From NCBI RefSeq assembly GCF_004795255.1, contig NZ_SSBQ01000002.1:4928001-4992000 (forward strand): a DNA stretch of 64,000 nt, given 5' to 3'. This DNA comes from Streptomyces sp. RKND-216 (GTDB lineage: Bacteria; Actinomycetota; Actinomycetes; Streptomycetales; Streptomycetaceae). Each line of letters starts with the position of its first letter. Positions within the stretch are counted from its first letter, which is position 1. The notes beneath the pieces were generated by a model. The model made no database searches and was not told where the DNA came from. It saw nothing but the letters and a program-made list of their open reading frames with translations. A program made the translations under genes and the position numbers. Positions 59,228 through 61,385 of this stretch are shown in pieces.

Positions 59228-59833
59228 ATGCTGAAGGTGGGACTGACCGGCGGGATCGGGGCGGGCAAGAGCGAGGTGTCGCGGCTGCTGCGGTCCTACG
59301 GAGCGGTGCTCGTCGACGCGGACCGCATCGCGCGGGAGGTCGTGGAGCCCGGCACCCCCGGACTCGACGCCGTGGTCGCCGAGTTCGGCCGGGACGTGCT
59401 GGCCGCGGACGGCACGCTGGATCGTCCGAAGCTCGGCGCCCTCGTCTTCGCCGACGCCGGACGGCGCGCTGCGCTCAACGCCATCGTCCACCCGCTCGTC
59501 GCCGCGCGTTCCGCCGAACTGGAGGCCGAGGCCGGGGACGACGCAGTCGTCGTGCACGACGTGCCGCTGCTGGCCGAGAACGGACTGGCCCCGCTCTACG
59601 ACACGGTGGTGGTCGTGGACGCGTCGCCGGAGACGCAGCTGGACCGGCTCGTCCGGCTGCGCGGCATGCCGGAGTCCGACGCCCGCGCCCGGATGGCCGC
59701 TCAGGCCACGCGAGAGGACAGGCTCGCCGTCGCCGACGTCGTCCTCGACAACGACGGGCCGCTTCAGGAGCTGGAGCCCCGCGTCTGCCGCCTCTGGGAC
59801 GACCTGCGGCGAGCCGCCGACCGGCGGTCGTAG
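59228..59833 (+). CDS. coaE: Dephospho-CoA kinase
   Basis: 201 aa, single domain without the UPF0157 extension of mycobacterial CoaE. Last step of CoA synthesis. P-loop GGIGAGKS at 8-15, [16 protein letters not shown], the lid-side VHPLV and [11 protein letters not shown], then [20 protein letters not shown] 59228. Confidence 0.94.
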
Positions 59834-59950
59834 CGCCGCCTGCCGGGCAAGTCCCTTTCCAGCAGGGCGGGTTCGGCCTGCCGGTGCTCTGGGCGGATGC
59901 CGCCCCGCCCTCCACAATGCTCGGGTGACCGGCATCGAGTGGAGGCGCGG

Positions 59951-60640
59951 ATGAGAAGCGGAAGACGACGCGGACGGATCGTGACGGCGCTGCTGGCCGC
60001 CTTGGGCGCACTGGCCCTGTCGGCCGGGCCGAGCGCCGCGCAGGAGCGGAACGCCGGCCAGCAGTACGCCGTGCGGGGCGGTGACACGGTGTACGGCGAT
60101 CACGGCGGCGCGTGCCAGGTCGGGTTCAATGCCCGCTCGTCGAGCGGCACCCGCTACGGCATCGTGCTCGGCGCCTGCGCCGAGGGCGCCTCGACCTCGT
60201 ACGCCGACGTGGCCCGCACGATCGAGGTGGGCACCGCGGACGGAGGTCTCCCCGGGCCCGGCACGGCCGCGCTGATCCGGTACACCAATCCCGAGGTGTC
60301 CTTCCCCGGCGAGATCACCGTCGGCGGCGACCACATCGACATCACCGGCTCCGCCGCCCCGCGCGTGGGGCAGAACATGTGCCACGCCGGCCGCACCAGC
60401 GGCCTGCGCTGCGGCGTGGTGCAGGCCGTGAACGTCACGATCCAGTTCCCGGACGGCATCGTGTACGGCGCCTTCCGGGCCACCGACTGTGCGGAGCCCG
60501 GCGACGCGGGCGCGCCCGGTTTCCACGGCACGGTGGCGCTCGGCCTCGTCCTCGGCAGCTCGAACTGCGCCGCCGGCGGCAGCGCGTACCACCTGCCCGT
60601 GCGCGAGGTGCTCAGCACCTACGGTCTCGCCGTCTACTGA
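59951..60640 (+). CDS. Secreted S1-family (streptogrisin-like) pseudoprotease
   Basis: 229 aa: Arg-rich signal peptide (about 1-30, cleavage near SAAQ), then a complete chymotrypsin-like domain of streptogrisin type with no pro-region. It lines up throughout: [77 protein letters not shown]. All catalytic positions differ. The His in TAGHC is Ala75 (VLGAC). The Asp in NDY is Thr105 ([11 protein letters not shown]). The Ser in GDSG is Ala186 (GDAGAP). Core Cys55-Cys76 and Cys180 pairs remain, plus an extra Cys144/Cys154. So the fold is kept but proteolysis is not expected. ATG 59951 with GGAGG five bases before it. Confidence 0.85.
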
Positions 60641-60675
60641 CGCCGGCGGGACCAGCTGCTCTCCCGTCGCCGCCG

Positions 60676-60702
60676 GCGCCCGGAGCGATGAGTTCCGGGC
60701 GC
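60676..60702 (+). terminator. Hairpin after the pseudoprotease gene
   Basis: Perfect 9-bp stem GCGCCCGGA (60676-60684) with TCCGGGCGC (60694-60702), loop GCGATGAGT; no T run. Lies 36 bases after the stop. Confidence 0.55.
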
Positions 60703-60767
60703 GGCAGCCGTCGTACTCGGTGAGGGCTCTCCCCCCGGCGGGTCCGCGAGACGGGAGGAGCACACCG

Positions 60768-61385
60768 ATGCGACTGACCCTGACCACCTTCGTGAGCCTG
60801 GACGGCGTCATGCAGGCCCCCGGCGGGCCCGACGAGGACCGCAGCGGCGGTTTCGAGCAGGGCGGATGGCTGGTCCCCTACGCCGACGACGACATGGGGA
60901 AGGCCGTGACCACCTGGTTCGCCGAGGCGGACGCCTTCCTCCTCGGCCGCCGCACCTACGAGATCTTCGCCGCCTACTGGCCGCGGGCCACCGAACCCGA
61001 CGACCCGATCGCCGGGCCGCTGAACCGGCTGCCGAAGTACGTGGCCTCCCGCACCCTGGACCGCGCCGACTGGGCCGGCACCACGGTCGTCGCGGAGGAC
61101 CTGCCCGGCCGCGTGGCCGAACTGAAGCGGCAGCCCGGCCGGGAGCTCCAGGTGCACGGCAGCGGCGGCCTGGCGCACACCCTGATGCGGCACGACCTGA
61201 TCGACGAGTACCGGCTGCTGACGTACCCGGTGGTGCTGGGCACGGGCCGCCGCCTGTTCCCCGAGGGCGCGGTGCCTGCCGCGCTGCGGCTGGTGCGGAG
61301 CGACACCACCGGCACCGGTGTGGTCGTCAGCGTCTACCGGCCGGCCGGCGTTCCCGAGTACGGTACGTTCGGCGAGCCGTCGTGA
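60768..61385 (+). CDS. RibD C-terminal/dihydrofolate-reductase-family protein
   Basis: 205 aa. DHFR-like fold with [60 protein letters not shown] and [17 protein letters not shown]. This is the common actinobacterial stand-alone RibD_C reductase; probably NADPH-dependent, substrate unknown. ATG 60768 with GGGAGGAG seven bases upstream. Confidence 0.9.

Follow-up and report, generated by a model that had tools for sequence, protein, structure and literature searches.

In the window analysed here, a 64,000-nucleotide stretch of the genome of Streptomyces sp. RKND-216, the gene designated P0001 lies downstream of coaE and encodes a secreted pseudo-streptogrisin. The features of the locus, all on the forward strand, are as follows.

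59228..59833, forward strand: coaE (dephospho-CoA kinase), the neighbour that marks the conserved locus
59939..59947, forward strand: ribosome-binding site GTGGAGGCG, with its GGAGG core at 59941-59945 (sequence)
59951..60640, forward strand: whole gene P0001, secreted pseudo-streptogrisin of 229 amino acids, ATG to TGA (translation)
59951..60040, forward strand: signal-peptide-like N-terminus, residues 1-30 (by eye)
60068..60637, forward strand: domain of the streptogrisin/alpha-lytic-protease fold, residues 40-229 (phmmer, profile and structure matches)
60173..60175, forward strand: catalytic His57 position, Ala75 (GAC, not GHC; alignment)
60263..60265, forward strand: catalytic Asp102 position, Thr105 (GTAALIRY, not NDYGIVRY; alignment)
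60380..60412, forward strand: Cys144/Cys154 pair, found in active relatives too (alignment)
60506..60508, forward strand: catalytic Ser195 position, Ala186 (EPGDAGAP, not EPGDSGGP; alignment)
60665..60713, forward strand: downstream GC-rich hairpin with 20-nt arms, 75% complementary, lacking a T-run

The good ribosome site named in the original prediction was readily recognised, as GGAGG precedes the ATG of P0001. The GC content at the first, second and third codon positions was 0.69, 0.59 and 0.93, a pattern typical for GC-rich actinobacterial genes. Inspection by eye of residues 1-30 found an Arg-rich start, then a hydrophobic core and a possible cleavage site SAA/Q; pLDDT was below 50 at residues 2-6, 11-24 and 30-32. 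A scan of positions 59700-60860 detected neither a sigma-70-like promoter nor a T-run terminator, and the terminator of its own with which the gene had been credited is thus unproven. A strong GC hairpin does lie there, and the stretch 60630-60740 around it folded well (z -3.1).

Searches against solved structures matched residues 42-229 of P0001 end to end with SGPB (1sgd; phmmer E 3.4e-35) and residues 40-228 with 6xhz (E 2.5e-44), bearing out the end-to-end streptogrisin-type domain proposed from the DNA alone. The chymotrypsin-like two-beta-barrel fold of streptogrisin size is present. The His-Asp-Ser triad of the active streptogrisin/alpha-lytic protease group (MEROPS S1E) is absent; the alignments agreed with the predicted Ala75, Thr105 and Ala186 at all three positions. 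An intact triad elsewhere in P0001 was rejected on sequence grounds, the alignment spanning the whole domain. In the alignment, LG and then either a deletion or Ser stand in place of the SGG strand. The core cysteines 55/76 and 180/206 are retained as claimed, together with 144/154, and the cysteines are presumably joined in disulphide bridges. A Pfam scan of P0001 gave no match, and the NCBIfam score to the Rv1815 family serine proteinase (NF051463) was 19.2 bits, below the cut-off of 175 bits.

The N-terminal pro-domain is also absent, as predicted: 41-42 mostly signal-like residues precede the domain GG of P0001, compared with 106-124 in most Ser-bearing relatives. The corresponding length in most Ser-less rows of the alignment was 33-61, with outliers at both ends of the distribution that are to be expected, since the starts were picked by a simple ribosome-site rule. 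Pfam Pro_Al_protease was detected in both Ser-bearing controls (23.7 and 21.1 bits, one above and one below the cut-off of 23.4) and in neither of the two pro-less members scanned.

The best match of P0001 by sequence, profile and Foldseek was 6xhz (Alpha-lytic protease homolog N4), which falls in the same pro-less clade and is 46% identical in the structure alignment. In 6xhz, His is changed to Arg and Ser is replaced while Asp is kept, whereas P0001 has lost Asp too. Nixon and colleagues reportedly described, in Biochemistry in 2021, pro-less alpha-lytic-protease homologues, N4 included, that naturally lack the pro region. SGPB and the Streptomyces fradiae proteinase (2sfa), unlike P0001, have an intact triad and no Cys144/154 pair in the alignments. 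Streptogrisins A and B and the S. fradiae proteinase (2sga, 3sgb, 2sfa) are synthesised with a pro-domain. Alpha-lytic protease (2alp and variants), 25-27% identical to P0001, is an active enzyme with a large pro region needed for folding, the textbook case of a protein held by a kinetic barrier. MamO (5hm9/5hma), a metal-binding bacterial pseudoprotease of the trypsin fold, was also among the Foldseek matches (E 4.9e-7, rmsd 5.6 Å, 12% identity); it is HtrA-like and belongs to a family other than that of P0001.

Relatives at E <=1e-50 were found by sequence search in at least 22 of 295 Streptomyces genomes, the own genome counted, and a profile search gave at least 31 matches of 259 bits or more in at least 27 of the 295 (hand count), the next score being 242 bits. 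As 7-9 candidates per genome were scored in the searches of the 295 Streptomyces genomes, of the class genomes and of one further genome set, these counts are lower bounds. A scan of named genomes yielded 80 loci, mostly from Streptomyces, and was the source of the Actinomadura row L052. At E 1e-70, no member outside the genus was found among 394 class-wide genomes, Streptomyces included, with the same 7-9 candidates per genome, and a 27-base pattern from the P0001 gene matched none of the viral contigs searched. The nearest orthologue of P0001 was L009 (65% identical), the single close one found; none closer was detected in the overlapping sets of 295, 392, 101 and 100 genomes.

A tree of 112 rows placed 44 Ser-less rows with two Ser-bearing ones (98/80) and separated them from 65 other Ser-bearing rows and L007. 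When 6xhz was included in an enlarged tree, in which the 28 pro-bearing rows were chosen by hand and the long-branch L007 and L008 were left out, one branch (96/81) separated these 28 from 53 pro-less rows, and the 52 pro-less rows other than Actinomadura L052 were supported at 100/99. P0001 grouped with 6xhz, apart from the pro-bearing relatives; 6xhz itself lay inside the pro-less clade beside L029/L160 (100/100). The tip branch of P0001 measured 0.47 on a stem of 0.45, compared with a median end branch of 0.12. Rows were called pro-less from start codon, ribosome site and inspection by eye, the starts of L044, L046, L050, L075, L159 and L163 being uncertain. Genomes G047, G105, G109 and G184 each encode two proteins of the pro-less clade. 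The own genome also encodes another Ser-less protein of streptogrisin type, L007 (C2:515947-516561, minus strand), which falls outside this clade; it has intact His and Asp, GAGGG in place of GDSGG, and no Cys144/154 pair.

The state of the triad was compared among 52 distinct pro-less sequences, a set omitting L033, L035, L038, L040, L169 and L170 (domains identical to those of retained rows), the pro-domain Ser-bearing rows and the G743 match. The triad was broken in 50 of the 52, in agreement with the expectation that its loss recurs in a clade; P0001 is not the only copy to have lost it, and decay of a single copy was rejected. Ser was absent in 47 sequences, His in 29, and Asp, as read by eye, in seven (P0001 itself, listed as L001, and L009, L020, L050, L052, L162 and L163). 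The residues at the Ser position were Thr (18), Ala (12), Val (7), Ser (5) and Gly (3), followed by the rarer Met (2), Leu (2), Asp (1), Asn (1) and Ile (1); those at the His position were Arg (24), His (23), Gly (2), Ala (1), Ser (1) and Val (1). Most members retain Asp and have His or Arg at position 57. All three residues are lost in four sequences (P0001, L009, L052 and L163); the clade also includes members that lack just the Ser and members in which just the His has changed, to Arg. The set Ala/Thr/Ala was seen only in P0001, its orthologue L009 having Ser/Thr/Val.

Asp was lost in four of the five rows without His or Arg at position 57 and in three of the 47 with either residue (Fisher p 0.0006, uncorrected for relatedness). 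A salt bridge between Arg57 and Asp102 in the Arg-bearing members, which we infer, would explain why Asp tends to be lost where position 57 has neither His nor Arg. Three members of the pro-less clade, L050, L162 and L168, kept Ser in an incomplete triad. In L168 (G555) and L162 (G089), both pro-less with Ser195 retained, His57 is changed to Arg, and in L162 Asp is also changed to Asn; the erosion of the triad did not always start at Ser. The triad was intact in L084 (Streptomyces sp. NRRL B-1347) and L164 (G213) only, both of which are pro-less with an N-terminus that is merely signal-like. Judging from their sequences, these two may have protease activity and fold unaided by a pro-domain, or may retain the residues without using them.

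Other positions of the domain also set the clade apart. Position 201, assigned by motif as the Ser214 position, was Val, Ile, Phe or Leu in 41 of 42 distinct clade rows compared with Ser in 64 of 64 others, and position 190 was Ala in 34 of the 42 compared with Leu in all 64. Arg42, Asp86, Glu121, His145 and Arg148 were conserved in the clade and uncommon in the 64 others. These many changes in the core may allow fast folding without a pro-domain, an idea taken from the work on pro-less homologues. All 52 pro-less sequences carry the Cys144/154 pair, as do 44 of the 45 Ser-less rows; among the Ser-bearing rows it occurs in 20 of 67, or in 18 of the 65 that lie outside the clade. The extra pair is thus present as described but is no invention of P0001, and its standing as a special feature of this protein was rejected.

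Close pairs within the clade showed a median dN/dS of 0.285 (147 pairs), compared with 0.367 in active relatives (775 pairs), as calculated by Nei-Gojobori on GC-rich genes for pairs with pN <0.2 and dS 0.05-1.5, the pairs drawn from 35 clade and 64 active sequences being mutually dependent. Close clade pairs are under purifying selection. For P0001 and L009, dN/dS was 0.52 over the whole gene and 0.61 in the mature part (dN 0.276, dS 0.452), compared with 0.06-0.25 for six neighbours in the same two genomes; the P0001 protein is evolving faster than the products of its neighbours, and its branch is under weaker constraint than the rest of the clade. As dS between the P0001 gene and its orthologue (0.482) matched that of coaE (0.492), the gene has been inherited vertically together with the adjacent genes. 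A position downstream of coaE, either adjacent or a few genes away, is shared by six members that represent three lineages of the tree, and this favours a gene kept at one site for a long time. The view of P0001 as a maintained rather than decaying gene is accordingly favoured by the clade median and the shared coaE locus, but not by the value of 0.52 on the P0001-L009 branch. Likewise, the recurrence of Ala/Thr/Ala in a clade of low dN/dS, put forward as a check, was borne out for triad loss and for the median, but not for the exact combination.

Clustering of the neighbours at 43 family loci, one of which (L137) is that of the paralogue L007, detected no common partner gene; the simple GC-based ORF caller used here overlooked the focal gene in L122 and truncated it in L039. 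The recurrent neighbours reflected shared loci or were members of broad families. A response regulator was found near 10 of 43 family loci and a sensor kinase near nine, compared with two and none, respectively, of 59 flanks of Ser-bearing relatives, a comparison that leans towards the family because the queries were drawn from family loci. The regulators occurred at five separate placements (36-54% identical between them) and the kinases at four (26-30%); being different paralogues, they were rejected as one conserved partner. Neither gene was detected beside P0001 at the threshold used for the family loci. In the related loci L044, L046, L134 and L135, kinase, regulator and family gene follow one another on the same strand, and other two-component genes occur close to members at another three or four placements.

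Taken together, we regard P0001 as a maintained, secreted, non-catalytic extracellular binding domain that lost its pro-domain together with proteolysis, with a probability of roughly 0.6. Since it belongs to a pro-less clade with a nearly always broken active site, the protein, judged from sequence, probably binds something rather than cuts. An ancestral streptogrisin would have lost proteolysis and the pro-domain together, as a protein that does not cut itself would no longer need pro-catalysed folding into a kinetically trapped state, making the pro-domain dispensable. The fold would then have persisted as a stable module for binding outside the cell, its former substrate cleft remodelled: Ser195 would have become varied, His57 would have changed to Arg in about half of the members, and the Ser214 position would have become Val or Leu. 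In the lineage of P0001, the His57/Asp102 pair would have been released as well. The losses of proteolysis and of the pro-domain coincide throughout the clade except in L084 and L164, whose full triad without a pro-domain stands against this reading, as do the Ser retained in L050, L162 and L168, the dN/dS of P0001 against L009, the patchy family and the missing common partner gene.

That P0001 is a relaxed relic, the clade having once been functional and this branch no longer needing a protein now heading to loss, seems unlikely, although it is the strongest of the alternatives. The long tip branch, the dN/dS of 0.52 against L009, the loss of all three triad residues and the patchy occurrence in at least 27 of 295 Streptomyces genomes would all fit such a course. 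However, P0001 has an open frame, a GC3 of 0.93, a ribosome site, six conserved cysteines and a full fold, dN is still about half of dS, and the G145 orthologue likewise has an open frame with the cysteines.

We consider it rather improbable that the protein is a decoy, a dead protease titrating SSI-type secreted inhibitors and so shielding the active streptogrisins of the cell. The own genome does have three SSI-family matches above the Pfam cut-off (L174, L175 and L176) and six paralogues in which the GDSGG motif is intact (L002-L006 and L008), and P0001 has nothing but small residues at positions 57 and 195. The match of L176 covers only part of the SSI profile. A decoy would be expected to keep the inhibitor-facing cleft, but in the clade nine residue types besides the five Ser occur at position 195, Arg is frequent at position 57, another residue stands in for Ser214, and the SGG strand of P0001 is altered as described above. 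Such cleft residues would block canonical inhibitors. As the cleft residues of the clade vary too freely, a conserved inhibitor trap is disfavoured; among the roles offered in the original prediction, the decoy is thus conceivable but goes against the clade pattern, and binding is what we infer. Slightly less probable still is a role as scaffold or adaptor within a secreted complex, comparable to that of the inactive trypsin-like portion of UmbA lectins. UmbA of the Streptomyces umbrella toxin particles combines an inactive trypsin-like domain with a lectin and is encoded with UmbB/UmbC; P0001 shares with it the genus, the broad fold class, secretion and inactivity. However, P0001 has no lectin domain, the 43 loci have no common adjacent partner gene, and a profile search against solved structures, run up to E 10, recovered nothing beyond proteases of the alpha-lytic type, NAL1 and two acylase matches at chance level. 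No UmbA-type chain was recognised among the structure matches shown for P0001, and a search of the own genome for ALF repeats gave no matches, the control being equally silent.

With the non-catalytic binding domain as the preferred reading, P0001 is an extreme new case within a group of pro-less homologues that was already known. More tentatively, and at somewhat less than even odds, the secreted actinobacterial clade as a whole may have turned the streptogrisin fold into a non-catalytic recognition module, its triad eroded repeatedly and in no fixed order. The serine protease homologues of animals show a comparable loss of catalysis on a protease fold. The pro-less clade, including L084 and L164, offers a direct set with which to test kinetic stability as the price of proteolysis, and it flags secreted Streptomyces proteins with ligands that could be found by simple pull-downs.
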